This document shows, piece after piece, positions 2,315-30,099 of a DNA stretch of 43,607 bases (positions are counted from its first letter, which is position 1; each line of letters starts with the position of its first letter). The translations under genes were made by a program, and so were the position numbers. The notes under the pieces were generated by a model, which was given only the letters and a program-made list of their open reading frames with translations, made no database searches and was not told where the DNA came from. The stretch comes from a virus: the IMG/VR virus record IMGVR_UViG_3300049911_000188, positions 1 to 43,607 of that record; one strand, 5' to 3'.

Positions 2315-5300
2315 TGCCAGGATTTGATATAAAAACAGCCATTCCTATAACAGAAGAAGGTGGGGTAGCTACTATGCCGAAGGAATTTGATATCAACACG
2401 GTCCTGCAGCTTACCGAACCTGTCGATAGCGAAGATGGCTATGATGCATTTCTGCGTTCGCAACTTCATAAGCAGATAAAGGATAACATTAACCGGCCGC
2501 TGAACGCAGGAGAAGTAAAATTCATACTGGATAACGAACAGCAGGATCCCGGAGCATTCCGTTCATTCGCCGTGCCTTATACTGAAGGCATTGTGGGTTT
2601 CTTCACCAAACCATTCGGATATCGGCCAGATTTAACGCGTCCATTTGGACTTAAGAAAGGCCCTAAGACAGAAGCCGAAATTGCAGAGGCAGCGGCCATG
2701 CAGAAAGAGCACCCTGTGGCATTTACTCTGGGCCAGATAATAAGTGGTGTCGCACCATTTATTGCTACAGCCCCATTATTTCCGCAGAGCCTCCTGGGAA
2801 CATTAGGCACATTTGAAACTGTAGGCTTGGTAGGAAAAATAGGCCAGATAAGGACAGAAGAAAGCCTGCTTATGCCTCCAGGCGAGAAGGCCTGGGAGTT
2901 TGGTAAGGAAGCAGTAAAGACAGGAATTATGGCTCCGATTTGGTATTACAGCGGAGCGCTTAGATTTATAGGCCAACCGTATCTTTCTGCATTTACCCGG
3001 GCCGGAGTAAGAGGCATAGGAACCACAGGCCTTGAGACAGTATTCGGAACAGACCTTGAGCAAGCACTAAAACAGGGCGGGATGATTACGGCATTATCGC
3101 TTATTTTTGAAGCACCGGCATTAGCCAAAACAGCCTTGGGGCGCGGAATTATAAATAGAGCAGTAAAAATTGCAGAAGCAAAAGGTCTTAAGCCAATCAT
3201 AGAAACTGTACCTGGGAAAGGTGAGGTTATAACAACCTGGGGCTGGGATGTAGATAAAATGGATGCAGCGGCAACCAGGACAAACATATTTAGTTTGGTG
3301 AAAACCTTTTATAACTTAATGCGAACTAAAATAGAAGGGGCAGCAGGCCCAGCAGAAGCCACAAGACAGGCAACTTATGCCAAATTGACATATAGCCAAT
3401 TTTTAGCCCCCACAGAGCCACCAGCTCAACCAGGCGGGGCAATCTGGGCTCCAAAAGGGGTAGGTATGCCTCCAGGCCAGCCAGCCGCAGGCGGCATGAT
3501 GCATATGCCCGAAAAAGCCCCTGTTTTCTACAGCAAAATGGCGAGCGCATTGGCCGAGAAGATGCCTGAAAGCGCGCCAGCAGACCAAGTGCGAGGTATT
3601 CTGGCCAATTCTGGCATACCTAAAGAAGAGATAGCGTGGTCCGGAGTAGAGGATTTTTTGAAAGGCAAAGATAAAGTAAGCAAGACCGAATTGTTGGACT
3701 ATCTACAAAAGAACCAGCTGACGATAGAGGAGACGATAAAGGGTGGAGATAAAGAAAGTATTACTGAATTAGATAAAGCAAGAGATAAGGCGGCAAAAAA
3801 GATATTTGGAGAAGACAGGTATTTCAACTTACCAGAGGAAATGCGAGCTGAGATAGATGCGGCCTTAGAAGATAAAGGTTATGATACAAGTATTGGAGAA
3901 CGAGGCACCAAATACTCTGACGTCAAATACAACGTCGTCACCGAAAATTATAGGGAGATGTTGTTGAAGGTGCCGGTAGAACCTCCGCAAAAAACAAATT
4001 GGCAAATAGTACCAGACATAAATAATACATTTAATGTCATAAATCCTCGGGGAGAAAAGATGTATACGTCGGGTCGAGGACCCACGACAGAATCCGAAGC
4101 GCAAGAGGATATAAAGGATTTTAAAAGAGGATATGATACTCATGGAGGAGAATATCAAGTACCAGCTCCAAGTACCTACACAGAACCCCACTTCCCAGAA
4201 GATAAAAATACTTTTGCTCATGCCAGAGTTGGAGATGTCACCGATAGCCAGGGCCGCAAGGGTTTATTCGTCAACGAAATTCAGAGCCAATGGGCGCTGG
4301 AAACAAGAAAAGAAAAAATATCTGCCGACAGAATAAATTATATTAGAGAAAGAATAGAGAGTCTAAATAAAAGATTAGAAACTGAGATTGGACCCGAGAG
4401 ACCAGCTATAATTACTGAACGGAATATTCTTAATAAAGAATTGGCAGAAGCAGAACGAGGCGTTCCTTACCACCCTGTCGTCTCCCGCTGGCACGAAGTT
4501 ATTCTCAAGCGCCTATTACGTTACGCCGCAGAGAACGGATACGATTTTGTGACTTGGGCAACAGGAGAGCAGGTGGCGGAGTATTACGATTTAAGTAAAT
4601 ATGTAGATGAGATTAAATATAAGAGTTTCGGTCCGGCTCGAGGATGGCAAGTTGACATTATAAAAGACGACAAGGTTTTAGAGAGTAGGGCAATTGAAAA
4701 TCCCGAGGAATTACGGAACTTCGTTGGAAAAGACCACGCTCAAAAAATTATAGATGGTAAGAAATCGGGGAGTATTAAAGGCAAAGATTTAAAAGTTTCT
4801 CCTGAATGGGCTAAGAATTTATACGATAAGCAAATCCCCAACTGGCTGAATGATTACGCCAAGAAGTTTGGGGCGCAGGTGGAGACGGTAAAGATATCAG
4901 GTATAACCAAAGCAATATTGAGGGCGTTAGAGGTAGATAAGGTGGGCGATAATTATATGATTATAGATAATGATGCTGGCGGAAGAGTAATCGCTCAAGA
5001 CTTTTATACAAGAGAAGAGGCAAAAAAAGCACTTGAAGAAATACTTAAAAAAGAAAGAAATATAGAAACAATAACCCAGCAATCCCTCGCCATCACCCCT
5101 CAAATGAAACAAGCACTACTCACCGAAGGCCAGCCGCTATTCGGCAAGATGCCAACAGAAGTGGGTAAGCTCGGACTCGAGCCTGGTCAGATGAAAATAT
5201 TCCGCATGGATGAGGAAATGAAGATAGTAAACACCAAAGGCGAAATAGTAACTCTGCCTAAAGGCGAAGAATATCGAACCCTTCCTGTCTACGACGTTGA

Positions 5301-8300: not shown

Positions 8301-9318
8301 AATTATTCAAGGAAAAAGTGCTCTGTGGTTGAAAAAATTCCTGCAGAATTTAAAAGGTCGGGGTCTGGATTACGAATTTAGGACCGGAAAAATGGGGTGG
8401 CTGAGTCGCGTGGCCGACGGAATTATAGACTTAGGGTATATAAAATTATTATCTCTTAACTGGAGATCGGCTATCAAGAACATCGTCGCTGGAGAAGCTA
8501 ATGCCATAATATGGCAGGATTTCTCAGCATATTTAAAAGGTAAAGAGCGTTTCTTCTCTCATCCCAAAAAAGCGTATGATATTGCCGTAAAGCATGGGGT
8601 GCTCGAAGGAACATATGCCGACTATACCCAGCGTGGCATAGGAAAATTAAAGAAACTTCAGGACAAGGCTGTGATAGGCCAGCAGGCTGGCGAAGTAGAG
8701 ATAAGGACTTGTATGTTCGTAAGTGAGTTAACTGATCAGGAATGGGAAACTGGGAATATATCGCCGGTTAAATCAAGAAAATTGCGAGATGACATTGCTA
8801 TAACTCAAGGAATATTCTCGAAGACAGAAAGCCCTCTATGGGTGCAAACAGCTCTGGGCCGCATGATTATGCAGATGAACCGGTGGCGTATAACCGACGC
8901 CATGATGCTACGCCGGATAGTAAACGGCGCCAAGGAAGAATGGAAACAGGGTAACTATAAAGGGCAGGATTCGCAGAGATTATCAAAGGCATTATTATTT
9001 TATGCCATAGGAATGTATGTCAGTTATGAACTCGGGAAAGCAGGACTTAAGAAAGCGGCACAGATAGCGCAATCTATGTCCGAAGTGGTTAACAGTTTAA
9101 TAAGCCTAATATCGCAGGGCGACCTGATGAAGATGATAACCGATAACCCGACACTGTCAGTAATAAAGGAATTTTTCTTCACTATGCAGAATCTGGCTAA
9201 ATATTTACATGTTCCCGGAGCTCAAAAACCAAGCAAGATTAAAATTCAACAAGGAATAGAGGAAACCTACATAGCACCTTTAGACACAGTAAAAGATATT
9301 ATAGACGAACTACAATAA
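2314..9318 (+). CDS. Giant internal virion / polyvalent ejection protein, 2334 aa
   Basis: The largest gene, about 16% of the genome, at the T7 gp16-like position. Residues about 139-175 are hydrophobic. Residues about 430-948 carry a module I associate with large phage polyvalent proteins: an EEIAWSG segment, GLFVNEIQSQWALE near 650, LLRYAAENGYDFVTWATGEQ near 735, and ITPQMKQ...EGQPLFGK at the end. Residues about 1278-1625 resemble a D12-class adenine DNA methylase: YDLWGGAKGY (motif I-like), LNELSDERYNYY, then IVDPQYLNP (motif IV, with DPQY in place of DPPY, Asp near 1529) and a following TYSVG. The C-terminal 700 residues are mostly helical with weak hydrophobic patches, typical of an ejected structural protein. 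Expected role: packaged in the head and ejected into the cell. The methylase-like activity is an inference and the altered motif may mean it is inactive. Confidence 0.75.
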   Translation: MPGFDIKTAIPITEEGGVATMPKEFDINTVLQLTEPVDSEDGYDAFLRSQLHKQIKDNINRPLNAGEVKFILDNEQQDPGAFRSFAVPYTEGIVGFFTKPFGYRPDLTRPFGLKKGPKTEAEIAEAAAMQKEHPVAFTLGQIISGVAPFIATAPLFPQSLLGTLGTFETVGLVGKIGQIRTEESLLMPPGEKAWEFGKEAVKTGIMAPIWYYSGALRFIGQPYLSAFTRAGVRGIGTTGLETVFGTDLEQALKQGGMITALSLIFEAPALAKTALGRGIINRAVKIAEAKGLKPIIETVPGKGEVITTWGWDVDKMDAAATRTNIFSLVKTFYNLMRTKIEGAAGPAEATRQATYAKLTYSQFLAPTEPPAQPGGAIWAPKGVGMPPGQPAAGGMMHMPEKAPVFYSKMASALAEKMPESAPADQVRGILANSGIPKEEIAWSGVEDFLKGKDKVSKTELLDYLQKNQLTIEETIKGGDKESITELDKARDKAAKKIFGEDRYFNLPEEMRAEIDAALEDKGYDTSIGERGTKYSDVKYNVVTENYREMLLKVPVEPPQKTNWQIVPDINNTFNVINPRGEKMYTSGRGPTTESEAQEDIKDFKRGYDTHGGEYQVPAPSTYTEPHFPEDKNTFAHARVGDVTDSQGRKGLFVNEIQSQWALETRKEKISADRINYIRERIESLNKRLETEIGPERPAIITERNILNKELAEAERGVPYHPVVSRWHEVILKRLLRYAAENGYDFVTWATGEQVAEYYDLSKYVDEIKYKSFGPARGWQVDIIKDDKVLESRAIENPEELRNFVGKDHAQKIIDGKKSGSIKGKDLKVSPEWAKNLYDKQIPNWLNDYAKKFGAQVETVKISGITKAILRALEVDKVGDNYMIIDNDAGGRVIAQDFYTREEAKKALEEILKKERNIETITQQSLAITPQMKQALLTEGQPLFGKMPTEVGKLGLEPGQMKIFRMDEEMKIVNTKGEIVTLPKGEEYRTLPVYDVEGNIVPNKVKLQDGKQVTVYEGELNKLKGKILGEGEQPMAGGEMHPAVPEEEQPKPRIEQRKEDMVLWNTPDIVDKLMTSEKEFLKKYIDEGKSLKQIAKELGESIEDTKKTEMWAYAHMQEITDELRAEIEEAGTEDYLARKGELKTYLQGQLDPELKKEGEYHNLAMLPWLWAKEGQTPPGVRPDVLASEIAGMGYPIEATEGDVIGLIESYFKKEIEGRAAGFEAQYSKARQAELKRGLTAKVKKVKPRVLEREITGVGNGSTISTREDIDYEERNKIFKGMPFALLGNKAEVLARLPSKFKAAIKQGIKKVYDLWGGAKGYRAGLFSDIPAADYTLNELSDERYNYYKNIQDPEKQKIIKQTLVNIMNEFVVLMKDAFNLPAAKDNKDFLDMLNSWLKMGLRKERYYFTREVIQEFGDRLLQEASADKFSSPESSAKYYFLENTSIFSISKTEKGYAWTQGIIRTTKGESAIRNVIDKLIDFNGQLDAELNRDKGMPVTQENAWDAIDRLTEDIKAGKVNLEETVVVIVDPQYLNPTEAAGTYSVGVSDTAWKGHKQNLEKSLLPLVKTGVKIIYTNNADYELINWLRAHKLPYNINKSIGAVAERSGRDEIISFINFKLPQQYVSGVGVGVERPMGQPGAPGEGVIEPGQQYVTPRVTGQSAKFIEWLREHELKLQEEVRKQELIAKINLIAKSKMLSNITVSRIRKYLGIKEWKNTDIPQIQKLVDYLEGMKTGDKLLSEKQINVLKGLLEDVKDLAIMPKRIAIEQFGNNPQLLEGLIMSRVANELIPTVDIKEGNPLVQKIVNEINERLEFAQEEVRRRDNQLEEMLTKAEKSRKLPTKEKVKRFFTSQNKEIFQALSGEKIELTKEETAVVAYLKNFFAMAKEKLVLQKFRKNYITHLEQPLTEKIFEKGLIGALQQYFKEQAGEKGIPTDIMLELDNIIGSEKFFRFALQRKGGIEPTTNIRKIVHEYSSLFETKIALDRILPLGQVATQLIIQGKSALWLKKFLQNLKGRGLDYEFRTGKMGWLSRVADGIIDLGYIKLLSLNWRSAIKNIVAGEANAIIWQDFSAYLKGKERFFSHPKKAYDIAVKHGVLEGTYADYTQRGIGKLKKLQDKAVIGQQAGEVEIRTCMFVSELTDQEWETGNISPVKSRKLRDDIAITQGIFSKTESPLWVQTALGRMIMQMNRWRITDAMMLRRIVNGAKEEWKQGNYKGQDSQRLSKALLFYAIGMYVSYELGKAGLKKAAQIAQSMSEVVNSLISLISQGDLMKMITDNPTLSVIKEFFFTMQNLAKYLHVPGAQKPSKIKIQQGIEETYIAPLDTVKDIIDELQ

Positions 9319-9328
9319 GGAGGATCTC

Positions 9329-11560
9329 ATGACAGTATCTGCAGGAACAATAAAACATGTTTACAATGGCAACGGAACAACCAGAGATTGGGATTATACC
9401 TTTCCCATCTACACTGCCGATGGAAGCGATATTAAGCTGTATAAAACAGCTATTGGCGGAGCTATAACCGAAATCACCAGCAATTACTCTGTGGATGTGG
9501 TAGCTAAGCATGTTACATATCCAACCGTAGCATCAGGCCTGCCTTTATTAGCCACAGGCGAAAAGATAACATTGCTGCGGACAGAGACATTATCTCAGGA
9601 TGCTGACTGGAAAAACCAAGGGCCATTTAACGCCGAAACAGTAGAATCTGTCGCTGATAAAAATATAATGATTGCCCAGCAACAGAATGAGGCGCTAAGC
9701 CGTGCGGTAAAATATCCTGTAGACCAAACTCCTACCAGTGATACTACTGATACATTTCTTACTACCATAGAGGCAGCCAAGACAGCAGCACAGGCCGCAG
9801 CAACAGCCGCACAAGCTGCGCAGACCGCGGCAGAGACAGCCAAGACCGCAGCACAAGCGGCACAGACCGCGGCAGAAACCGCAAAGACAGGCGCTCAAAC
9901 TGCGCAAACAGCCGCAGAGACCGCTAAGACCGCGGCAGAGACAGCCAAGACCGCAGCGGAAACAGCACAAGCTGCCGCAGTGACAGCTAAAAACGCAGCA
10001 GAGACCGCACAAGCAGCCGCTGCCAGTAGTGCGAGTGCAGCCGCAAGTTCAGCCTCGGCCGCAGCAACCAGTGCCACCAATGCAGCCGCAAGCGCGACCG
10101 CCGCAGCAAACAGTGCGAGTGCCGCAGCCACATCCGCTACCAACGCTGCGAATAGTGCCACTGCAGCCGCAGCATCTGCTACCGAAGCGGCTAATTACGC
10201 AGCTGCCCTCAAAGCCACTTCTACATCATCCGTAGCCATAGGCACGGGCGAAAAAACATTCACTACTCAGGCCTCAAAGCAATTCGCAGCCGGCCAGTTT
10301 ATTTTAATCGTAGATACTGCTAACTCCGCAAACTATATGCACGGCCAGGTAACAAGCTACAGCGGAACAACGCTCGTAGTAGATGTTCAAAATATAGGTG
10401 GAAGCGGGACAATAGCGAGTTGGAATATTTATGTGTCAGGAAGTAGGGGTGCAATAGGAGCGACTGGCCCGACAGGTGCAGACGAAAAAGTCAAGAACGT
10501 CTCGGCTGATGCCTCAGCCGGTTACCTTGCCGAGAAGCTGGCCGCTCTTTACCCAAGTCTCTATCAGCGCGACCAGAAGTGGGTTCTTAAGACGCCATAT
10601 ACCACAGCAGCCAACAGGTATACTATTCTGACACCAGCCAAACTTTCAGTAGATATAAACGGAACGGTCTACTTCTTGACCGCTCAAGCAGAAGTAAATT
10701 TATCCTTGGAAGCTTCATGGGATACCATAGCGGGCACAGATTACAGGACGGCCGCAAATAGAGCAGGCAAAGACTTCTATATTTACGCCTGCGTGCCTGT
10801 TTCTGGCGCAGCTCCTAAGATCGTGCTCTCAGCCAATTCAACCACACCATCAGGATATTCCGGAACAACATCGCGTAAGATAGGCGGTTTTCACGGACTA
10901 TGCGTGGCAGTAGGAACCATATCTGGGCATACCTTAACTACCTTTGTAGCTGGCGACGTTCTACCTGTCTCAATTTGGGATCTCGTACACCGGCCAGTTG
11001 CTAACCCGGAAGGTATGGTATTTAGCGACTCAATCAACAAGTGGGTAGATATCTACCTTGCCTCGGGGACCGGAGCGTCTACAACCTCAGTTTACGGAGG
11101 CACAATATCAGACACCCGCGACTGGAATGACTTTGTAGACGACGGTGGAGCAGTCAAGAAACGTATGCTTGACGACGGCGAATTCCAAGTAATAGCCGCA
11201 GGTTCAAACGAAGAGACTAACATTACTGGATCAGCAGACCCGGGGACCACTGGCGGACATGTAGACACGGCCTCAAGGCGTATGATTTCAAATATAGGCG
11301 TTGAGGATGCTTGCGGTGTATTATTGCAATGGCTTAGCGACCAATCATCTATGCAATCTACCGATGCAGCAGGTTGGTATGATTTACCAGGCTCTAAGGG
11401 ACAGCTATATAGACCCTTGAATTCAAATGATGTGAAGCTGATTGCTGGCGGTGCTTGGGACAACGGCGTGAATTGCGGTTCCCGGGGGCGGTTTACGGCT
11501 TACTCTCGCTGGGTTGCGGGTTCGGTTGTCGGTTGCCGGTTTTGCGCGGAGCCCGTTTAA
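9329..11560 (+). CDS. Tail fibre with DGR-diversified C-terminal domain, 743 aa
   Basis: The receptor-binding fibre. Residues 1-140 resemble the T7 gp17 N-terminal tail-attachment domain (YNGNGTTRDWDYTFP, then LPLLATGEKITLLR). Residues about 148-292 are an Ala/Thr/Ser-rich repeat that should form a trimeric coiled coil. A short collagen-like stretch (GAIGATGPTGA) follows near residue 372, then a beta-rich region. The C-terminal domain (from about 620) has the ASRRMISNIGVEDACG and CGSRGR...GCRFC pattern of the formylglycine-enzyme/C-type-lectin-like fold used by DGR targets. The last 40 residues (703-740) are encoded by the variable repeat. An AGGAGG site sits just before the ATG. Gene position after the ejection proteins matches a fibre gene. 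The variable residues should lie on the binding face. Confidence 0.92.
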   Translation: MTVSAGTIKHVYNGNGTTRDWDYTFPIYTADGSDIKLYKTAIGGAITEITSNYSVDVVAKHVTYPTVASGLPLLATGEKITLLRTETLSQDADWKNQGPFNAETVESVADKNIMIAQQQNEALSRAVKYPVDQTPTSDTTDTFLTTIEAAKTAAQAAATAAQAAQTAAETAKTAAQAAQTAAETAKTGAQTAQTAAETAKTAAETAKTAAETAQAAAVTAKNAAETAQAAAASSASAAASSASAAATSATNAAASATAAANSASAAATSATNAANSATAAAASATEAANYAAALKATSTSSVAIGTGEKTFTTQASKQFAAGQFILIVDTANSANYMHGQVTSYSGTTLVVDVQNIGGSGTIASWNIYVSGSRGAIGATGPTGADEKVKNVSADASAGYLAEKLAALYPSLYQRDQKWVLKTPYTTAANRYTILTPAKLSVDINGTVYFLTAQAEVNLSLEASWDTIAGTDYRTAANRAGKDFYIYACVPVSGAAPKIVLSANSTTPSGYSGTTSRKIGGFHGLCVAVGTISGHTLTTFVAGDVLPVSIWDLVHRPVANPEGMVFSDSINKWVDIYLASGTGASTTSVYGGTISDTRDWNDFVDDGGAVKKRMLDDGEFQVIAAGSNEETNITGSADPGTTGGHVDTASRRMISNIGVEDACGVLLQWLSDQSSMQSTDAAGWYDLPGSKGQLYRPLNSNDVKLIAGGAWDNGVNCGSRGRFTAYSRWVAGSVVGCRFCAEPV
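9771..10205 (+). repeat. Ala-rich coiled-coil repeat in tail fibre
   Basis: About 145 codons of near-repeats (units such as AAQAAQTAAETAKT, later SASAAATSATNAA), highly GCA/GCC-rich and imperfectly tandem. On the opposite strand it gives long spurious open frames. Such tracts can change length by slippage or recombination, which would alter fibre length. Confidence 0.85.
11437..11550 (+). repeat. DGR1 variable repeat (VR1)
   Basis: 114 bp at the 3' end of the fibre gene, aligned without gaps to 11640-11753. There are 18 differences: 17 where the template has A (9 to G, 5 to T, 3 to C) and one T to G that is silent in a Gly codon. Encoded residues change at 10 positions, mostly Asn in the template. 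The last 22 bp (from TCGGTTGCC to GCGCGGA) are identical and would act as the initiation-of-mutagenic-homology region. Confidence 0.97.
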
Positions 11561-11639: not shown

Positions 11640-11753
11640 GCTGATTGCTGGCGGTAATTGGGACAACGGCGTGAATTGCGGTTCCCGAGGTCGGAATACG
11701 AATAACTATCGCTGGAATACGAATTCGAATATCGGTTGCCGGTTTTGCGCGGA
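11640..11753 (+). repeat. DGR1 template repeat (TR1)
   Basis: The invariant template copied into VR1. Read in the VR frame, most sites that differ are AAT/AAC Asn codons (RGRNTNNYRWNTNS). Because AAY codons cannot become stop codons by mutation of their adenines, this pattern allows free diversification. An open frame runs through it (11626-11838) but there is no reason to think it is translated as a protein. Confidence 0.97.
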
Positions 11754-11880: not shown

Positions 11881-12915
11881 ATGAGAAGGCATGGCAATCT
11901 TTACGAAAAAATAACTTCTTCTGAAAACATAAAGCTTGCCTATGTCCGCACGCGCAAAGGCAAAACCTGGCAGCAACAGGTAAGAACATTTGACCTGAAC
12001 ATAGAAGAGAACCTAAAGAGGATACAGGAGATACTTATCAACAAGGCATTTAAGACATCGGTATATCGCACCAAACGTATCCACGAGCCTAAAGAGCGCG
12101 TAATTTATATCGTCCCGTTTTCACCAGATAGAATAGTCCACCATGCCTTAATGAACATCTTAGAGCCAATTTATAAGCCGATGTTTATTCACGACTCCTA
12201 TGCTTGTATAGAAGGTAAAGGTCTGCATGGAGGAAGCCAGAGGACTATGGAGTTTGTCCGGGCCAATAAATACTGCCTTAAGTGCGATATCTCTAAGTTT
12301 TACCCGTCTATAAAACACGACATTCTTTTTAATATCTTAAAGCGCAAGATTAAATGCAAAGATACTCTCGGTTTAATCAAAGCCATTATTTACGGCATAG
12401 GCGGCGGCCAGAATGTGCCTATCGGAAACTACACCAGCCAGTGGTTCGGCAACATCTACTTAAACGAATTGGATCAGCACGCCAAGCACATTTATAAAAT
12501 TAAACATTACATTAGGTACTGTGATGACTTCGTATTCTTCCATAACGATAAGGCAGAACTGCGCAAGATTGCTAAAGGTTTAAAAGTATTTTTAGATGAG
12601 CGCCTTGGCTTGAAGATGAGCAAATGTGAGTTGTTCCCTGTATCCCAGGGAGTAGACTTCTTAGGTTACCGACACTTCCCGCGCTACGTCCTTTTAAGAA
12701 AATCAACGGCGATAAGAGTAAAGCGTCGTCTTAAGATATTACCCCGGCTTTTTGAGGCGGGCAGAATCAACTTTGAATATTTCCGCTCTTGTATTGCCTC
12801 ATATACTGGGTGGATGCGCTGGGCCAACTGCCATAATTTAGGCCTTAAGTTACAGATGGACAGATTACAGGAGATATTAAATGTCGCCGGAAAAGCAACC
12901 GCCCAAGCGATTTAG
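11881..12915 (+). CDS. DGR1 reverse transcriptase, 344 aa
   Basis: A DGR-clade reverse transcriptase that copies the TR1 RNA into A-mutagenised cDNA. Visible motifs in order: RIVHHALMNILEPIYKPMFIHDSYA (motif 1 region, residues near 84), LKCDISKFYPSI with catalytic Asp136, VPIGNYTSQWF (181-187), the DGR signature in place of the QGxxxSP of group II intron RTs, YCDD at 213-216, and GVDFLGY (thumb side). The N-terminus (LYEKITSSENIKLAY) is typical of DGR RTs. There is no maturase or endonuclease domain. It is about 45 bases shorter in coding length than a DGR RT with the insertion seen in the second copy of this genome. The 3' end overlaps the next gene by 35 bases. Confidence 0.95.
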   Translation: MRRHGNLYEKITSSENIKLAYVRTRKGKTWQQQVRTFDLNIEENLKRIQEILINKAFKTSVYRTKRIHEPKERVIYIVPFSPDRIVHHALMNILEPIYKPMFIHDSYACIEGKGLHGGSQRTMEFVRANKYCLKCDISKFYPSIKHDILFNILKRKIKCKDTLGLIKAIIYGIGGGQNVPIGNYTSQWFGNIYLNELDQHAKHIYKIKHYIRYCDDFVFFHNDKAELRKIAKGLKVFLDERLGLKMSKCELFPVSQGVDFLGYRHFPRYVLLRKSTAIRVKRRLKILPRLFEAGRINFEYFRSCIASYTGWMRWANCHNLGLKLQMDRLQEILNVAGKATAQAI

Positions 12916-13195
12916 TGAATTCGCCCGGGAGAACATGCCGTTAGACGGCAGCAAGCTTAAACTCGATGATGTGGTCAACCGCGAGATGTTGGTACTGGAT
13001 TACCGCGTTAAAGATAGCCATTATAAAAAAGCGAATTGTGAACTGTGTATGACGCTGCAATTTAAAATAGAGGATAAGGTGTATGTAATGTTTACCGGTT
13101 CCAATGTCCTGCGTGATCAGATAGAGAGATATAAGGCTGAGATACCGTTTATCACGACGATAAAGAAAATAGATAGATATTATACATTCACTTAA
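12881..13195 (+). CDS. Small conserved-looking protein coupled to RT1, 104 aa
   Basis: The start lies inside the end of the RT1 gene, preceded by AGGAG at good spacing, so the two are probably translated together. The protein opens with a charged KRFSEFA segment, then is rich in short beta-type stretches (MLVLDYRVKD, CMTLQFKIED, VYVMFTGSNVL, FITTIKKIDRYYTF). That pattern would suit a small beta-barrel or OB-like fold, but I do not recognise the family. Its coupling to RT1 makes it a candidate DGR1 accessory factor; it does not resemble the four-helix Avd protein of DGR2. It could equally be an unrelated phage gene. Confidence 0.75.
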   Translation: MSPEKQPPKRFSEFARENMPLDGSKLKLDDVVNREMLVLDYRVKDSHYKKANCELCMTLQFKIEDKVYVMFTGSNVLRDQIERYKAEIPFITTIKKIDRYYTFT

Positions 13196-19015: not shown

Positions 19016-19195
19016 ATGGTAAGGGAAGTTGTAGATATAAAAACGATAGCTGGTCGTCTTAGTTATTCAGAAAAATATCTGCGTAATAAATGGCCAGAGT
19101 TATTATCGGGCATTAAACCGGTTAAGCTGGGCGCTAACCGTGCAATCAGGTTCTACTGGGACGAGGTTGAAGGCCTATTAGCCCAGCCAAAATAA
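19016..19195 (+). CDS. Small winged-helix/HTH protein, excisionase candidate, 59 aa
   Basis: An AAGGAAGAG site precedes the ATG. The layout (DIKTIAGRLSYSEKYLRNKWPELLSG ... AIRFYWDEVEGLL) is that of AlpA/excisionase-type DNA-binding proteins: a helix-turn-helix followed by a short hairpin ending in an Arg-Phe/Tyr strand and a final helix. Such proteins direct phage excision or act as transcription factors. Its place in the early operon suits an Xis. The family is assigned by eye. Confidence 0.6.
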   Translation: MVREVVDIKTIAGRLSYSEKYLRNKWPELLSGIKPVKLGANRAIRFYWDEVEGLLAQPK

Positions 19196-19204
19196 GGAGG
19201 TGTC

Positions 19205-19345
19205 ATGTTAGTAAATCCGTATTTGAAACAGGTTCATCCCTACTACTACAAACGCATCCGCGAGGCACCGTTCAATGCGGCCGTGGTTTTAATATGTGGG
19301 ATACTTGGGCTGATTATTTTAACCATCGCAACCTTTATTAAATAA
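19205..19345 (+). CDS. Small single-pass membrane protein, 46 aa
   Basis: AAGGAGG at ideal spacing before ATG. The N-terminal 22 residues are polar and Tyr-rich (VHPYYYKRIRE), followed by one membrane helix (AAVVLICGILGLIILTIATF). Function unknown. Confidence 0.6.
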   Translation: MLVNPYLKQVHPYYYKRIREAPFNAAVVLICGILGLIILTIATFIK

Positions 19346-20953: not shown

Positions 20954-21868
20954 ATGGAACTAACCAAAGAGCAGATAGAGGCAAGGAAGAATTACATAGG
21001 AGGCAGCGATGCTGCGGCAATCCTGGGACTATCCCGTTACAAGACAGCCCTTGAGGTATGGGCATGGAAGACCGGTCAGGTAGTACCGGATGACATATCC
21101 GACAAGGTCTACATAAAGCTGGGCAATAAGCTCGAGCAGACCGTGGCCGAATTCTTCACAGAGGAAACCGGAAAGAAGGTGCAACGCGTAAACGATACGA
21201 TATTCCATCCTAAATACCCCTTCCTTGGGGCGAATCTGGACCGAAAAGTAATCGGAGAAGATGCAATCCTTGAATGTAAAACAGCGAATATGTTCAAGAC
21301 AAGAGAATGGGAAGGAGAAGAAATACCCATCGAATACATAATCCAATGCGTGCATTACTTGGCCGTAACTGGCATAAAGAAGGCCTACATCGCCGTGCTG
21401 ATAGGCAACATGGATTTCAAGTGGAAAGAGATAACCCGGGACGAGAAGGTAATTAATGACATGGTCGCCAAAGAGGTAGCCTTCTGGAATAACTTCATCG
21501 TGCCGAAAGTCATGCCTATGACTATAACCTCAGAAGACGGCGGCATACTTTATGCCCTATTCCCCAAGGCCGCAGAGGAAAGCATTATCGAACTCGGTGA
21601 TGATACAAACGCACTCGTAGAGGCCCTTGATTCTATGCAGGCAGATTATAAGGTATTAGAGAAAGAAATCGAAGAGCAGAAGAACTGCTTAAGGGCCAAG
21701 CTTAAGACCTTCGAAACCGGGGTGACGAATAAATTCAAGATTACCTGGAAGAACCAAACTGAAAGGAGGATTGATACAGAACTCTTCAAAAAAGAAGAGC
21801 CGGCGATGTATGAAAAATACGCACCACCAAAAGAAAAACGAGTATTGAGATACGCCATAAAGAAATAA
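20954..21868 (+). CDS. YqaJ-type viral recombinase exonuclease, 304 aa
   Basis: A lambda-exonuclease-fold nuclease that resects double-stranded DNA ends to feed the RecT annealase. Visible features: YIGGSDAAAILGLSRYKTALEVW at the start (substrate/active-site loop), LGNKLEQ with Glu61, FLGANLDRKV with Asp96, and ILECKTA with Glu107 and Lys109, giving the D-(E)xK nuclease core. The C-terminal 90 residues are a charged helical extension. The start follows the upstream stop by one base. Confidence 0.92.
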   Translation: MELTKEQIEARKNYIGGSDAAAILGLSRYKTALEVWAWKTGQVVPDDISDKVYIKLGNKLEQTVAEFFTEETGKKVQRVNDTIFHPKYPFLGANLDRKVIGEDAILECKTANMFKTREWEGEEIPIEYIIQCVHYLAVTGIKKAYIAVLIGNMDFKWKEITRDEKVINDMVAKEVAFWNNFIVPKVMPMTITSEDGGILYALFPKAAEESIIELGDDTNALVEALDSMQADYKVLEKEIEEQKNCLRAKLKTFETGVTNKFKITWKNQTERRIDTELFKKEEPAMYEKYAPPKEKRVLRYAIKK

Positions 21869-21878
21869 GGAGGAGGCC

Positions 21879-22958
21879 ATGGCAAAACAGGGAGAAGTAG
21901 GCAAAGTATTAGAGAAGACAGGAGAACAAACCAGTCTGGAAACACTGATAAGACAATCGGCAAAGGAACTCGGGCAAACCTTGCCAGCACACCTTAATCC
22001 GGAACGACTGGTCCGGATAGCGCTAACATCAATACGCATAAACCCAGAACTTGCTAAATGCACACCGCAGAGTTTCTTAGGCAGCCTATTCGTACTCGCC
22101 CAAATAGGTCTTGAGCCGATAGCCGGCCGCGCGTACCTTCTGCCTTTCAGAAATAAGCGCAAGTTGATAGTAAATGGTAAGGAAGAATGGAAGGTAGTTC
22201 CTGAGGTCCAGGCACTCATAGGATATAAGGGCTTGGCTGAGTTATTCTACCGGCACGAAGTCGCCCTATCCATTGAGATGCAGACCGTACACAAAGAGGA
22301 TTCTTTTGATTATGTGTATGGAACAGACAGTTTTATAAAGCATAAGCCAGTGCTTGGCGATCGGGGGCCAGTCATCGGATACTATGCCATAGCTAAGATG
22401 AAAAGTGGCGGTTGCGTATTCCGTTTTATGTCAAAAGACGAGGCTATGGAACACGGCAGGAAGCATGCCAAGACCTACGATAAAGAAAAGGGCGAGTTTT
22501 ACCCCAGCTCCCCATGGGCCAAGGATCCTGACGCAATGTGCATGAAGACGGTCCTGATACAACTGGCCAAGTTACTACCTCTTTCTGTAGAACTGCAGCG
22601 TGCCATAGCAGTAGACGAAACCAGCCGGGAATATCGCAAAGGCATAGATAGTGCAATGGATCTTCCAGATACAACCAGCTGGGAAGAGCCCATAGATGTA
22701 CCGGCAATAACGGATCAGGCCACTAAGAATGCTGCCATACCTGCCAAGGAGATAGAGAAAGGGCCCCCAACAAAATCGCCTCTGCCCCAAAACGTTCAGG
22801 ACACCATAGCCAAAGCCAGGTCAAAGGTAGGGGATAAGATATACCAGAAGGTATTAGGCGGTCTGGGTTATTCGAAGATGGAAGAAATTCCAAGCATTCC
22901 AGAAGCCAATAAGCTGATAGCAGAGTTAGGTAAAGCCTACTCAGCAAGCCAGGGATAA
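21879..22958 (+). CDS. recT: RecT-family single-strand annealing protein, 359 aa
   Basis: The core matches RecT: LNPERLVRIALTSIRINPEL, CTPQSFLGSLFVLAQIGLEP, GRAYLLPF, VVPEVQALIGYKGLAEL, then SPWAKDPDAMCMKTVLIQLAKLLP. The C-terminal tail (from about 265) is Pro/Lys-rich and poorly ordered. It pairs with the exonuclease upstream for homologous recombination, probably for genome circularisation or replication. AGGAGGAGG precedes the start. Confidence 0.95.
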   Translation: MAKQGEVGKVLEKTGEQTSLETLIRQSAKELGQTLPAHLNPERLVRIALTSIRINPELAKCTPQSFLGSLFVLAQIGLEPIAGRAYLLPFRNKRKLIVNGKEEWKVVPEVQALIGYKGLAELFYRHEVALSIEMQTVHKEDSFDYVYGTDSFIKHKPVLGDRGPVIGYYAIAKMKSGGCVFRFMSKDEAMEHGRKHAKTYDKEKGEFYPSSPWAKDPDAMCMKTVLIQLAKLLPLSVELQRAIAVDETSREYRKGIDSAMDLPDTTSWEEPIDVPAITDQATKNAAIPAKEIEKGPPTKSPLPQNVQDTIAKARSKVGDKIYQKVLGGLGYSKMEEIPSIPEANKLIAELGKAYSASQG

Positions 22959-23836: not shown

Positions 23837-24208
23837 ATGCTCAACAAGGCAATTCTTATAGCAAATCTTTGTAAGGATCCCGAACTAAAGTATACCCCCC
23901 AAGGCACCGCAGTCTGTAACCTAAGGCTCGCATCTAACCATACCTTCAAGACAAAATCAGGAGAGGATAAGGAGCAGGTGTTATACATAACAGCCACCGT
24001 CTGGAGTAAGAGGGCCGAAAACTGCGCTGAATATTTAAAGAAAGGCAGCCACATATTTGTAGAGGGCCGGCTACAGACACGCTCCTGGGATGGGCCAGAT
24101 GGTAAGAAGAATTCTGTGATAGAGATACAGATAGAGAATATCCAGTTTCTTGACCGGACTAAAGAGGGGACGTCGTTAGAGGAAACAGCACAAGAAGAAC
24201 AGTCATAA
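23837..24208 (+). CDS. ssb: Single-stranded DNA-binding protein, 123 aa
   Basis: An OB-fold SSB: LNKAILIANLCKDPELKYTPQGTAVCNLRLA, ITATVWSKRAENCAEYLKKGSHIFVEGRLQTRSW, IQIENIQFL. It is somewhat shorter than bacterial SSBs and lacks a clear DDDIPF-like tip; it ends Gln-Glu-Glu-Gln-Ser, acidic but without the Pro-Phe end. It fits the recombination and replication block. Confidence 0.95.
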   Translation: MLNKAILIANLCKDPELKYTPQGTAVCNLRLASNHTFKTKSGEDKEQVLYITATVWSKRAENCAEYLKKGSHIFVEGRLQTRSWDGPDGKKNSVIEIQIENIQFLDRTKEGTSLEETAQEEQS

Positions 24209-24233: not shown

Positions 24234-24758
24234 ATGAAACAAAAACAAGTGGAAAGGATATTAGAGGATCGCATTGATATTCCCGGAATCGCCCGCGATA
24301 TGCTGGCTGTAGGATACGAGCCAGCCAAAAAAAGAGTAGTAAAGCCTGGAGTACGTTTCATCGATAACAAGAACGGCACCATAACCGACACCAAAACAGA
24401 CCTTATCTGGGTCAAAAATCCTCATACAGACCTGCCGGAAAAGTTTAAGGAATACATGAACTGGCAACCAGCCATAGAAGCCTGTAAAGAACTGAACTTT
24501 GCCGGTTGCAAAGACTGGCGTCTGCCTACGGTTGAGGAGCTGCGCGAGTTGGTAGACTATGCCCGCGGTGCCAAAGATAACGAGCCAGCCATAGATACAA
24601 AATTTTTCCCGGACACCAAATGTTCCTGGTATTGGACCAACACCCCTTGTGCTTGGTGTTCAGGCAGCGCGTGGTACGTGTACTTCAGCCACGGCGGCGT
24701 GGACTACGGCGGTAAGGGCTACAGCAGTTATGTGCGTCCGGTCCGCTCCAGCCAGTGA
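24234..24758 (+). CDS. DGR2 target, DUF1566/Lcl-type lectin-like protein, 174 aa
   Basis: Residues about 40-174 follow the DUF1566 (Lcl C-terminal) pattern: RFIDNKNGTITDTKTDLIWVK, WQPAIEACKELNFAGCKDWRLPTVEELRELVDYA, FFPDTKCSWYWTNT, ending YVRPVRSSQ. This family adopts a C-type-lectin-like fold and is a known DGR target class in bacteria. Residues 140-174 are encoded by VR2 and differ from the template protein at 12 positions, mostly Asn in the template. The N-terminal 40 residues are polar with no signal peptide or membrane segment and no fibre-like repeats. Whether it is assembled on the virion or acts inside or on the host cell is unclear. AGGAGGAGG precedes the ATG. Confidence 0.9.
   Translation: MKQKQVERILEDRIDIPGIARDMLAVGYEPAKKRVVKPGVRFIDNKNGTITDTKTDLIWVKNPHTDLPEKFKEYMNWQPAIEACKELNFAGCKDWRLPTVEELRELVDYARGAKDNEPAIDTKFFPDTKCSWYWTNTPCAWCSGSAWYVYFSHGGVDYGGKGYSSYVRPVRSSQ
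24651..24754 (+). repeat. DGR2 variable repeat (VR2)
   Basis: 104 bp at the end of the target gene, gapless with 25275-25378. There are 14 differences, all at template A (10 to G, 3 to T, 1 to C). The last 24 bp are identical between VR and TR and would be the initiation-of-mutagenic-homology segment. The stop codon follows 1 base later. Confidence 0.98.
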
Positions 24759-24794
24759 TTGGCGATTTGACAATTTTCAAGCGAGGTAATCGAG

Positions 24795-25157
24795 ATGAGT
24801 TTTTACGAACAGCTACCAGTATATAAGAAAGCTTTAGACCTCACCGTGTATTTTAATACAGTGGTTCGTCACTTTGATAAGCACTGTAAATATACCGTAG
24901 GCGCTGATCTCTGCAATCTTTCTCGCAAGATTCTCATCTTGGTTGCTCGGGCAAATGCAAAACAAGAAAGACAGGTAAGACTTCAAGAGGCAATCGAACT
25001 TTTGGAAGAATTAAAGATTCTAATCCATGTCTGTAAAGAGATAAAAGCGTTTCGTTCATTAAATAGTTTTGAATTTGCCACTCGGAAAACTATTGAAGTG
25101 GCAAAGCAGTGCGAAGGGTGGTTAAGAGGCCAGAATTCCTCAAGCAATAAACCTTGA
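24795..25157 (+). CDS. avd: Avd-like accessory protein of DGR2, 120 aa
   Basis: A small, almost all-helical protein (EQLPVYKKALDLTVYFNTVV, GADLCNLSRKILILVARANA, RLQEAIELLEELKILIHVCKE, TRKTIEVAKQCEGWL) with the four-helix-bundle pattern and basic character of the accessory variability determinant. Avd forms a pentamer that binds the RT and template RNA and is required for mutagenic retrohoming in BPP-1. Location between VR2 and TR2 matches BPP-1. A GAGGT site precedes the ATG. Confidence 0.9.
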   Translation: MSFYEQLPVYKKALDLTVYFNTVVRHFDKHCKYTVGADLCNLSRKILILVARANAKQERQVRLQEAIELLEELKILIHVCKEIKAFRSLNSFEFATRKTIEVAKQCEGWLRGQNSSSNKP

Positions 25158-25274
25158 GGAAGCGTGCGATTTTGTATTCCACTGGGCGCTTACTCCACCT
25201 AAACGGTATAAGAACGCAAGGAGTGATACTAAAAAGATTCGCTCCTGAAGATAATAAGTGAGTAAGCAAAAGTT
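25158..25274 (+). other. Spacer between avd and TR2 with hairpin
   Basis: A non-coding stretch of 117 bases. GGAGTGA (25220-25226) can pair with TCGCTCC (25239-25245), with one G-U pair, over a 12-base loop. It lies about 30 bases before the template and could be part of the structured template RNA. Confidence 0.4.
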
Positions 25275-25378
25275 GCTTGGTGTTCAGGCAGCGCGTGGTA
25301 CGTGAACTTCAACAACGGCAACGTGAACAACGACAATAAGGACAACAACAATTATGTGCGTCCGGTCCGCTCCAGCCA
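25275..25378 (+). repeat. DGR2 template repeat (TR2)
   Basis: The template of DGR2. In the VR frame, its variable part is almost wholly AAC/AAT Asn and GAC Asp codons (VNFNNGNVNND, then KDNNNY), an A-rich design that cannot mutate to stop codons except at one AAG, unchanged in VR2. Its last 25 bases overlap the RT2 reading frame. Confidence 0.98.
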
Positions 25379-26457
25379 ACGGTTTACAGAACGAAATATT
25401 CTCGTTCCAAAATATATACCAGTGTTATCTTGATTGTCGCAGGAAAAAGCGTAATACCTATAACGCCTTGCGCTTTGAGATTAACGCCGAAGAGAATATC
25501 CTTAAGCTTGAACAAGAGCTTAAGAGCCATACTTATCGCCCTTCGCGCTCACTTCTTTTTGCCGCCCGTAAACCCAAGCTGAGGGAAATATTCGCCGCAG
25601 ACTTCCGGGATCGCGTAGTGCACCATATTCTGGTAAGAGAACTTGAGAAAATATGGGAGTCAATCTTTATACATGATTCCTATGCAAGCCGGGACGGCAA
25701 AGGTACGCATAAGGCCATTAGCCGGTTACAGAGCTTTCTGCGAAAGATCACCAAGAACGACCACGTCCGCGCCTATTATCTGCAGCTCGATATTAAGAAC
25801 TTTTTTACCAACATAGATAAAGATATTCTCTTTGTTTTAATTAAGTCTAAGGGAACCAATCCCGAATCCCTGTGGCTTACGCAGAAAGTTCTCTTTTGGG
25901 ATTGTACTACTTCATATATCCCAAGAGGCAACAAGGCTCTCTTATCAAACATCCCAATCAACAAAAGCCTTTTCGGCAAAGAGAACCTATGCGGCCTGCC
26001 AATAGGCAACCTTACCAGCCAATTCTTTGCGAATATCTACCTGAACGAGTTAGACCAATTCGTTAAGCACACGCTTAAGACGCATTACTATTTGCGCTAT
26101 GTGGATGACTTTGTTATCCTCTCCCAAGATGCCTCGGAATTAAGCGCCTGGCAGGCAAGGATTGAAGAATTCCTTACTAAGCAGCTTAGTCTACGCCTAC
26201 ATCCCAAAAGACGTAAGCTATTGCCTATCTCAAACGGCATAGACTTCTTGGGCTACATAGTCCGGCCAAGGTATATTCTGGTCCGGAGACGCGTAGTAAA
26301 TAACCTTAAAGAAAAAATCAGGCAGTTTAATCAGACTAAAACAAAAGACTTAAAGAAGCTTCGCGATTCAGTGGCAAGTTACTTAGGTCATTTTCGCTGG
26401 GCTAATGCTTATCGATTAACTCAAAGAATATTTAAGGAGCTACAATGGCTTGGATAG
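25354..26457 (+). CDS. DGR2 reverse transcriptase, up to 367 aa
   Basis: A DGR-type RT distinct from RT1. Motifs: FRDRVVHHILVRELEKIWE, LQLDIKNFFTNI with Asp146, an insertion (GTNPESLWL ... LFGKENLC, about residues 165-212) absent from RT1, LPIGNLTSQFF (217-223), YVDD at 249-252, and GIDFLGY. The only ATG in frame before the conserved region is at 25354, inside TR2; an upstream TGA at 25324 blocks earlier starts. AAGGA at 25338-25342, also in TR2, is the only visible ribosome site. The true start might be a non-ATG codon further in. The 3' end overlaps the next gene by 13 bases. Confidence 0.95.
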   Translation: MCVRSAPANGLQNEIFSFQNIYQCYLDCRRKKRNTYNALRFEINAEENILKLEQELKSHTYRPSRSLLFAARKPKLREIFAADFRDRVVHHILVRELEKIWESIFIHDSYASRDGKGTHKAISRLQSFLRKITKNDHVRAYYLQLDIKNFFTNIDKDILFVLIKSKGTNPESLWLTQKVLFWDCTTSYIPRGNKALLSNIPINKSLFGKENLCGLPIGNLTSQFFANIYLNELDQFVKHTLKTHYYLRYVDDFVILSQDASELSAWQARIEEFLTKQLSLRLHPKRRKLLPISNGIDFLGYIVRPRYILVRRRVVNNLKEKIRQFNQTKTKDLKKLRDSVASYLGHFRWANAYRLTQRIFKELQWLG

Positions 26458-27227
26458 AATCACATCAAGAATTAGAAAAACACCCCAAGGTTTTAATGTT
26501 AATGAGCCTTATGGGATGGAGTAAAGATACAACCATAGGAAAACTGCACCGCTTCTGGTGGTGGTGTGTAAGCTACGCAGAGGATGGAGATCTGCGCAAG
26601 TACCATGTAGATCAGATAGGAGCAGCAGTGGATCTTGCCCCTGGCAAAGAATCAAGTTTGTTTGCCAATAACATGGTCAAGGCTAAATGGATAGACCTAA
26701 AGCCTTACCTTCGGGTACATGATTGGTGGCATTATATAGGGAGGTTCCTGCAGGTAAAATATAAGCTCCATCCCGAGAAATGGGAAAAAGTGAGGGCTCT
26801 ATATACTGATGGTTCTAACAACCCCCCTAACAACGGTGGTAACAACCATATACCTAACCTAACCTTACCTAACCAAACCAAACCTAAAAAGAAACAGCCC
26901 TATTGGGCTGCTTTTAAGGAAAGTTCTCAAGAACAACTAAAAGTAGTAAACAAAGAATTCAATATATACCAATTCCTAACCAAGTTAAAGAAAGACAAAC
27001 AAATAGAGATACCAGAAGAAGTTATTAATAGGATATGTGCCAGCTACGCAAAAAATAAGGCCGGAATCAAGGACTCGTGGCCGTGGTTTATCGTAACAAC
27101 TCAGAAGGAATGGGAGGCATGGAACGCAGAGCAACAGATCAGGGAAGGTCAGGAATGGAAGAAGACGCCGGTGTCACCAGCCATAGCACAAATCTTGGCG
27201 GGGATGAAGATTGTGAGTAAATCATGA
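26445..27227 (+). CDS. Phage replication protein O-like, 260 aa
   Basis: The N-terminal 100 residues form the winged-helix start of phage replisome organisers (AWIESHQELEKHPKVLMLMSLMG, KLHRFWWWCVSYAEDGDL). A low-complexity Asn/Pro/Lys linker follows (NNPPNNGGNNHIPNLTLPNQ), typical of this class, and then a helical C-terminal domain that would bind helicase loader or helicase. It should start phage DNA replication at an origin that may lie in its own linker sequence, as in lambda O. AAGGAGC precedes the ATG, inside the RT2 gene. No phage helicase or polymerase was found, so host machinery must be recruited. Confidence 0.75.
   Translation: MAWIESHQELEKHPKVLMLMSLMGWSKDTTIGKLHRFWWWCVSYAEDGDLRKYHVDQIGAAVDLAPGKESSLFANNMVKAKWIDLKPYLRVHDWWHYIGRFLQVKYKLHPEKWEKVRALYTDGSNNPPNNGGNNHIPNLTLPNQTKPKKKQPYWAAFKESSQEQLKVVNKEFNIYQFLTKLKKDKQIEIPEEVINRICASYAKNKAGIKDSWPWFIVTTQKEWEAWNAEQQIREGQEWKKTPVSPAIAQILAGMKIVSKS
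26812..26890. repeat. Repeat-rich linker of O-like gene, possible origin
   Basis: A tract of short near-repeats: AACAACC/GGTGGT elements, then CCTAACC, CCTTACC, CCTAACC and two AAACC units. It codes for the protein linker, but lambdoid phages place their origin iterons in the same part of the O gene. It is weaker evidence than regularly spaced long iterons. Confidence 0.4.
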
Positions 27228-28617: not shown

Positions 28618-28753
28618 AAAGTTATTCCACAGACACGAGCACAAATTCACAAATAAACTTACCGTAAGCGGTTACGGCTATACGGAATACGAAATATGGT
28701 TTTGCAAATATTGCCCAGAGGTCTTTGGCAAGCAGACAAAGAATTTTAACTAA
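28592..28753 (+). CDS. Small basic protein, 53 aa
   Basis: The start lies within the previous gene and the stop overlaps the methyltransferase start (TAATG). The N-terminus is very basic (KRIRRWIKKLFHRHEHK), and a CKYC pair lies near residue 41. Coupling suggests real translation. Function unknown. Confidence 0.55.
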   Translation: MKRIRRWIKKLFHRHEHKFTNKLTVSGYGYTEYEIWFCKYCPEVFGKQTKNFN

Positions 28754-30099
28754 TGGAACTCAATAAAATAATTCAAGGTCATACACCCGATATCATAAAG
28801 ACATTTCCAGATGAATCAATAGACTGCGGTGTAACCAGTCCACCCTTTTGGGCTTTGCGGGATTATCAAACTGAACCGCAGATATGGGATGGGGATGAGA
28901 ATTGCCAGCACGAATGGGGGCAATTACAGAAAACGCTAAAGCATAAATCTGGAGAAACAAATCCCAGCAAAGAAGGATGGTATAAAGACAAAGGCGCAAG
29001 TGATGATAGGGGTAACAATTTCTGCTCTAAGTGTGGGGCCTGGCGTGGCTCATTAGGATTAGAGCCAACCTTTGATTTGTATATAAAACATCTCTGCGAT
29101 ATATTTGATGAGTTCAAACGAGTGCTGAAAAAGACAGGAACGCTGTGGGTGAATATTGGAGATACTTATTGGGGTGGTGGTAATAATCGTGGCAGCACCG
29201 AAGAAAATCTATCAGCAAAACAGTTTAGCAATCGGGGTGCAAGAGGACAAAATCAACGAGAGTGGGACAAATCTTATTCTACAAAATCCCTTTGCCTTAT
29301 CCCAGAGAGATTTTGCATTGAAATGGTAAACAGGGGTTGGATAAAAAGAAACACGATAATCTGGTATAAAAGAAATTGCATGCCATCGTCGGTAAAGGAT
29401 AGATTTACGGTGGATTTTGAGTATGTGTTTTTCTTTGTAAAGAATAAAAAGTATTGGTTTGAGCAGCAGTATGAGCAATGGACTGATAATAATATATCAG
29501 ATATTAGAAGAGCAGAAGCAAAACACCCCGGCTATAACGGCAAATATAGGAAAGGATACAATCAGCAATATCGAGATTTATTAGGTGGCCAAGGAATTAA
29601 GGGGCAACCAGTAGGAAATCCATCTCAAGGCCGTAACCGCCGTTGTGTCTGGGATATTCCCACAAAGCCGTTTTCTGGAGCGCACTTTGCTGTGTTCCCA
29701 GAAACATTAGTAGAGCCGATGGTGAAAAGTGGATGTCCAGAGTTTATCTGTAAGAAGTGCGGAAAGGCGAGGGAAAAGATAGAGAAACGAGAAAGTTTTA
29801 TTACGAGGCCGACAACAGGAAGTCCTAATCAAAAACAAAAACAGAAGCCAGAGAACAGTGGAGGATTGGCGAGAACTGGTGGTCATGTTGCTGTTAGGAT
29901 AGAGAATATTGGTTGTACCGACTGTGGCTGTGGGGCAGATTTTGAGCCTGGAGTAGTACTTGATCCTTTCATGGGCGCAGGAACCACGGCCGTAGTAGCC
30001 AAGAACCTGGGTCGGAATTATATCGGCATAGAACTGAATCCAAAATATATTGAGCTCGCCGAAAAGCGACTTTTAGATAAATTCGGGATGTTTAAATAA
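28753..30099 (+). CDS. DNA methyltransferase (N4-cytosine or N6-adenine, beta class), 448 aa
   Basis: A solitary modification enzyme. The catalytic motif SPPF (residues 29-32, in DCGVTSPPFWALRDY) lies at the N-terminus and the SAM-binding motif DPFMGAGTT (from Asp404) at the C-terminus, followed by GRNYIGIELNPKYIELAEKRL: the motif IV-before-I order of the beta class. Two Cys clusters (CSKCG near residue 93, CKKCG near 335) look like inserted zinc ribbons in the target-recognition region. SPPF is more usual for N4-cytosine enzymes, but substrate cannot be fixed. No restriction enzyme partner is present, so it probably protects phage DNA. Confidence 0.92.
   Translation: MELNKIIQGHTPDIIKTFPDESIDCGVTSPPFWALRDYQTEPQIWDGDENCQHEWGQLQKTLKHKSGETNPSKEGWYKDKGASDDRGNNFCSKCGAWRGSLGLEPTFDLYIKHLCDIFDEFKRVLKKTGTLWVNIGDTYWGGGNNRGSTEENLSAKQFSNRGARGQNQREWDKSYSTKSLCLIPERFCIEMVNRGWIKRNTIIWYKRNCMPSSVKDRFTVDFEYVFFFVKNKKYWFEQQYEQWTDNNISDIRRAEAKHPGYNGKYRKGYNQQYRDLLGGQGIKGQPVGNPSQGRNRRCVWDIPTKPFSGAHFAVFPETLVEPMVKSGCPEFICKKCGKAREKIEKRESFITRPTTGSPNQKQKQKPENSGGLARTGGHVAVRIENIGCTDCGCGADFEPGVVLDPFMGAGTTAVVAKNLGRNYIGIELNPKYIELAEKRLLDKFGMFK

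Follow-up and report, generated by a model that had tools for sequence, protein, structure and literature searches.

The genome analysed here (IMG/VR record IMGVR_UViG_3300049911_000188, 43,607 nucleotides, referred to below as the window) is that of a virus infecting an uncultured bacterium and carries two diversity-generating retroelements (DGRs), one of which, DGR1, acts on a tail fibre, and the other, DGR2, on a small lectin-like protein encoded among early genes. The phage DGRs that have been studied best serve host attachment. For DGR2, a probability of about 0.6 is given to the reading that its target is an early, cytosolic, diversified binder used for counter-defence or superinfection immunity; that the target is an intracellular, non-virion protein, whatever it binds, is held with considerably greater confidence. 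If such early targets work inside the cell, the targeted hypermutation of phages would also be aimed at intracellular partners, and DGR biology would, if this is true, extend to counter-defence or phage competition.

Two DGRs in One Phage Genome

The genome is that of a circular phage of approximately 43.5 kb, with a 131-base end repeat whose copies are 99% identical, and both a tyrosine integrase and a repressor are encoded in it. DGR1 has the usual phage form. Its target is an Mtd-like tail fibre (9329-11560; mtd_2nd 7.6e-17, phrog_11262 tail 3e-54), with VR1 (11437-11550) at the end of the gene, followed by TR1 (11640-11753), where 17/18 mismatches are at A, and by RT1 (11881-12915; phrog_1423 2.3e-118), which belongs to the tail-type RT clade; all are on the + strand. 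In the DGR of Bordetella BPP-1, Avd, TR and RT bring about A-specific retrohoming into the C-terminal CLec domain of the Mtd tail fibre. DGR1 is of that kind, whereas DGR2 is not. After RT1 lies a 104-aa ORF (12881-13195) with no family match, which is kept 3' of the RT in L059 and L064 (43-45%) and is possibly an accessory gene of DGR1.

DGR2, like DGR1 and the ssb, replication and recombination genes described below, is on the + strand; the interval 24234-25378 comprises the target gene (24234-24758, 174 aa), Avd and TR2, with most of RT2 lying outside it. The variable repeat VR2 (24650-24754) pairs with the 105-nt template repeat TR2 (25274-25378). Between them, the 120-aa Avd (24795-25157) matches phrog_3206, Avd of DGR, at 2.6e-17, and bAvd at 1.2e-9, one bit below the cut-off. 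RT2 (25354-26457, 367 aa), the start codon of which overlaps TR2, matches RVT_1 at 1.7e-22 and phrog_1423 at 3.6e-112 and contains the motifs GLPIGNLTSQ and YVDD. Three features by which a DGR is recognised, TR/VR mismatches confined to A, a DGR-family RT with SQ and YxDD motifs, and an Avd, are present.

An earlier note on this DNA had counted 14 differences between VR2 and TR2, all at template A and 10 of them A>G, altering 12 residues, and alignment of TR2 with VR2 reproduced each of these figures. The residues that differ are 150, 152, 153, 155, 157-160 and 162-165. As TR2 has 30 A in its 105 bases, 14/14 mismatches at A would be expected by chance with a probability of ~2e-9 (hypergeometric); 10 of the TR2 codons in the variable stretch are AAY. 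The probable IMH and downstream cis element (24735-24776) consists of the shared 3' end of VR and TR plus TGATTGGCGATTTGACAATTT, directly after VR2. This downstream part is identical at both targets of L003, a sister phage of the window (~86% identity), and similar at L004, and is probably a cis signal, its function being modelled on that of known DGRs. No significant hairpin was found 3' of VR2 in the window (DNA folding z ~0), and an Rfam search of the window gave zero matches. DGR2 is a complete and probably functional DGR.

A Small Lectin-Fold Target Without an Export Signal

The target matches PF07603 (Lcl_C, equal to DUF1566) at E 1.2e-33, with 116 bits against a cut-off of 34.9 and coverage of the full model (1-117), and consists of a conserved N-terminal tail (residues 1-40) followed by a DUF1566/Lcl_C domain of the CLec fold (~42-174). 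In the AF2 model, pLDDT is >90 for most of residues 41-110 and <50 for most of 1-38; residues before ~41 are unstructured or helical, with no confident structure for 1-40. Among solved structures, the nearest is the C-terminal domain (CTD) of the Legionella surface protein Lcl (8q4e; Z 12.7, 2.8 Å over 120 residues, 20% identity), and the Treponema DGR variable protein TvpA (2y3c) scores Z 8.9. As modelled, the target is a C-type-lectin fold with the variable residues 150-165 in its C-terminal VR. It shares domain family and fold with Lcl (PF07603); however, Lcl is a bacterial surface protein, whereas the phage target lacks an export signal and has a tail of just 40 residues. At the N-terminus, the targets of L003, L004, L007, L012 and L075, the last being an Omnitrophica genome, have in common a short amphipathic helix (ETVLSVLKEIRDLLK-like).

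The 17-residue hydropathy maximum of the target is 0.39 vs ~1.6-3.5 in cellular relatives, hydropathy being a crude measure of export that is not equivalent to SignalP, and the contrast is not independent of the label "exported", which was set partly by hydropathy. By that measure, the target has neither a signal peptide nor a membrane segment, in agreement with the earlier note, and thus lacks what marks exported cellular targets, a signal peptide or a TM anchor. The description of the target as a non-fibre protein also stands, because it contains only the Lcl_C domain and the 40-residue tail and lies outside the tail module; it is neither a tail-module gene nor a carrier of fibre domains.

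One alternative is that the target is a surface binder that arrives at the host surface by some other path, such as in a lysogen or at lysis, as might be thought from the exported or membrane DUF1566 targets of cellular DGR relatives and from the closeness of its model to the CTD of Lcl. This is quite improbable, since signal peptides are absent across three clades of such phage targets, the target has no membrane segment, and no secretion signal of a known type was recognised within its N-terminal 40 residues.

Outside the VR, dN/dS of the target is 0.15 vs L003 and 0.10 vs L004, and that of ssb is 0.14; for residues 1-40 it is 0 to 0.10, and inside the VR it is 5.0, the opposite of the rest of the gene. 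Judged by these ratios, purifying selection is acting on the target outside the VR, the first 40 residues included, which implies that the N-terminal tail is functional. These values bear on a further explanation, that DGR2 is a passenger cassette acquired from a cellular source, with a target that has ceased to matter to the phage. RT loss is indeed common: the records of L155, L168 and L176 lack an RT, and L003 has lost the TR to a deletion that begins within avd and ends within the RT, its record retaining no RT. However, the target is intact in L003 and has outlived its RT there, its non-VR dN/dS of 0.10-0.15 equals the level of ssb, the VR-bearing frames are open, and two cultured phages described below, Haboob and phPA-G, show recent A-directed change, so that a passenger status is very improbable.

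The Early-Gene Setting

The earlier note had placed the target between ssb and a replication gene, and both neighbours were found. The ssb gene (23837-24208; SSB 9e-35) is directly 5' of the target, with a 25-base gap in which the + strand scan found no terminator-like site, and the gene for a replication initiation-like protein (26445-27227; phrog_9474 6.4e-22) overlaps the 3' end of RT2. An early recombination module of RecE-like exonuclease and RecT-like annealing protein (20954-22958; phrog_434 1.4e-92, phrog_148 2.5e-68) lies in the same region. Promoter and terminator scans of the window gave only chance-level results, and the transcription units therefore rest on gene spacing. A DNA methyltransferase ORF (28753-30099, 448 aa) has conserved ends (~1-51 and ~400-442) that are ~350 residues apart, and it may contain an insertion or an intein-like element.

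Relatives of RT2 were collected from viral contigs, bacterial and archaeal genomes and cultured phages, through both RT and target alignment, and one and the same script was used to call TR/VR pairs and targets at every locus. Small export-less targets are common in phages, whereas the related DGRs of bacterial genomes mostly have longer targets with a signal peptide or TM. At least two targets per element, usually as tandem pairs, are present in 37/44 loci with small export-less targets. Among the neighbours in the RT clade of the window, 10/113 match a DNA methyltransferase family and 9/113 are ParB-like; the others are RusA, SSB, YqaJ, RecT, ERF, Rep_O and terminase, with integrase also present in early modules. 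In a second group, made up of proteobacterial prophages, the neighbours are cytosine methyltransferases, integrases and repressors. DGRs with tail targets, passed through the same pipeline, have tail, baseplate, virion and endolysin genes as neighbours. Methyltransferases are common in early regions, and their presence near by is weak evidence for counter-defence. Genes for MoxR or STAND NTPases or for effectors were absent from the top 25 families listed for each neighbour tally.

Phylogeny and Origins

In the RT tree, phage DGRs with small targets form three clades, each with support of 100/99, that lie among cellular DGRs whose targets are exported, and the tail-type DGRs, including RT1 of the window, form one separate clade. 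RT1 and RT2 being in separate clades, the two DGRs of the window differ in origin. The simplest reading of the tree would be that phages repeatedly took up cellular-type DGRs, with subsequent loss of the export signal, the direction of uptake and loss being dependent on rooting with the tail-type clade. The broader proposal, that temperate phages at least three times took up cellular-type DGRs, lost the export signal and made the lectin-fold target a hypermutating intracellular binder that tracks variable host defence factors or proteins of rival phages, is put forward tentatively, as somewhat short of an even chance.

Some loci do not follow the general pattern. L018 has an RT close to RT2 (support 99/92), and its DUF1566 target (8556-9341) has a signal peptide and is located in the head/tail module, 3' of the terminase, portal and capsid genes, which indicates that position and export can change within the RT2 clade. 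A single origin of the small export-less targets was considered and found to be a misfit, as starred branches of the tree force at least four label changes, L018 being part of these. In addition, the assignment of L072 to the tail type, made by index only in a quick tree, was rejected; L072 sits in clade B2.

Cultured Temperate Phages With the Same Kind of Element

Elements of this type are carried by the cultured temperate phages Burkholderia Magia, Shewanella QDWS and Pseudomonas phPA-G, Haboob, LPPA56 and Cruim01, with two or three small lectin-fold targets together with Avd and RT. In the well-annotated carriers, the element is located among repressor, RecT/Bet/exonuclease and integrase genes. 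Its place in Magia, QDWS, Haboob and phPA-G is the leftward early operon, and the structural genes of Magia and QDWS are on the other strand. TR/VR mismatches in these phages are all at A. A 3.15-kb cassette is common to phPA-G and Haboob at 96.9% identity, with mosaic surroundings; their TRs do not differ over the repeat, while the VRs of the two phages have 25 differences, every one at a template A (12/12 and 13/13). Identical templates combined with A-only differences between the VRs show that the element has been active since the common ancestor of the two phages, and they are indirect evidence of mutagenic retrohoming. Magia and QDWS share a 2.56-kb cassette that is 88% identical, and comparison of their head and tail regions gave no blastn match. 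Since the target travels with the RT between unrelated virions, a role as a tail component is hard to square with these data. In Cruim01 (L186), an annotated RT-15 RNA (8726-8918) covers the avd-RT gap, which is the TR region and a place equivalent to that in the window; the Rfam RT-15 family may be a DGR template RNA.

These comparisons are relevant to the explanation that the target belongs to the virion although its gene lies out of cluster, either as a second receptor-binding subunit or as a protein that is injected or internal. The best-studied phage DGRs diversify fibres (PMC8144416), phage tail proteins with DUF1566 domains exist, and the DUF1566 target of L018 lies in a head/tail module. 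Nevertheless, targets are found among early genes in three lineages, those of Magia and QDWS do not share a strand with the structural genes, target and RT move together between phages without nucleotide similarity in their structural genes, and the window already has an Mtd-like fibre with a DGR of its own. A virion protein is therefore considered unlikely.

Proposed Function and Relation to Known Systems

Early expression, cytosolic location and a role in conflict are what we infer for the DGR2 target from its setting and composition. The target would be read together with the early replication and recombination genes and would probably stay in the host cytoplasm. RT2 and Avd would make a cDNA of the TR RNA, with the errors at A, and this cDNA would replace VR2, these steps being those given in the DGR literature. 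Phage lineages would then carry differing 12-residue binding surfaces on a fixed scaffold, and the variable surface would bind an intracellular partner that itself varies, most likely a host defence factor that the phage must neutralise or else part of a rival phage. If the binder is early, cytosolic and variable, its partner would be expected to differ from host to host or from rival to rival, which is why a conflict role is proposed, in which the target would work as a diversified counter-defence or superinfection-immunity factor rather than as a receptor-binding protein. The earlier note had left open a virion, a surface and an intracellular option, and the last is favoured by the conserved early-operon site, the mobility of the target and RT as a block, and the absence of an export signal.

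That note was right to single out an early-region, non-fibre DUF1566 target, but an intracellular target would not be a wholly new role for a DGR, given two precedents (PMC10907252; PMC8008677). In Quimbyvirus, one RT serves both a structural and a non-structural target, the latter in a gene island related to defence (Benler 2021; PMC8008677), so that a non-structural target is not without precedent among phage DGRs. Both phages have a C-type-lectin target that is encoded away from the structural module and close to methyltransferases and other defence-related genes (PMC8008677); unlike Quimbyvirus, the window has a separate DGR for its early target, with its own RT2 and Avd, and the RT2 lineage differs from that of the tail-type RT1. 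For the cellular clade 5 DGRs (Thiohalocapsa PB-PSB1), cytoplasmic CLec targets have been predicted, some of them CLec-only and often paired (PMC10907252). Those targets adjoin MoxR or STAND NTPases and effector genes, whereas the carriers of DGR2-type elements are phages.

The announcement of Magia mentioned its DGR and proposed a part in adaptation or host range (PMC7883833). Like the window, Magia, a temperate phage, combines Avd and RT with short lectin-fold targets in its early operon; its RT, however, is ~41% identical to RT2 and belongs to another RT clade, and neither its third target, gp46, nor the early-operon class is pointed out in that announcement (PMC7883833). For three clades, Roux et al. 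found that most viral targets were structural, and other targets were given as unknown (PMC8144416). In the open-licence literature, no account of the early-operon DGR class as such was found. What is new here is how many independent lineages there are, the conservation of the early-module setting, and the cultured, testable examples; the temperate Pseudomonas, Burkholderia and Shewanella relatives make the role of the target directly testable.

Variation Among Close Relatives

A tblastn search with the 174-aa target against the cultured-phage collection gave 0 matches at 1e-5, and the 154-aa target of L004, used as query, found its own contig only. L004 has a tandem pair of targets, of which the 174-aa one differs at A in 19/19 sites. 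In L003, a second DUF1566 target (150 aa; 4630-5082) lies between excisionase-like and SbcC-like genes and is absent from the same site of the window (~19193-19206), which indicates that targets can move on their own; compared with TR2 of the window, the two L003 VRs have mismatches at A in 14/17 and 20/24 cases. At the L003 deletion junction (10777-10817), avd is cut at a point equivalent to ~25029 of the window and joined to ~26386 in the RT.

The L008 target (9595-10056) abuts its RT (10001-11110), with no Avd and no separate TR, and has a template-like C-terminus (NNGNVNNNNKDNDN); this arrangement looks like the outcome of a recombination between VR and TR that deleted avd. Finally, one residue at the VR of the L075 target (8958-9377) is ambiguous, which would follow if the assembly mixed VR variants.
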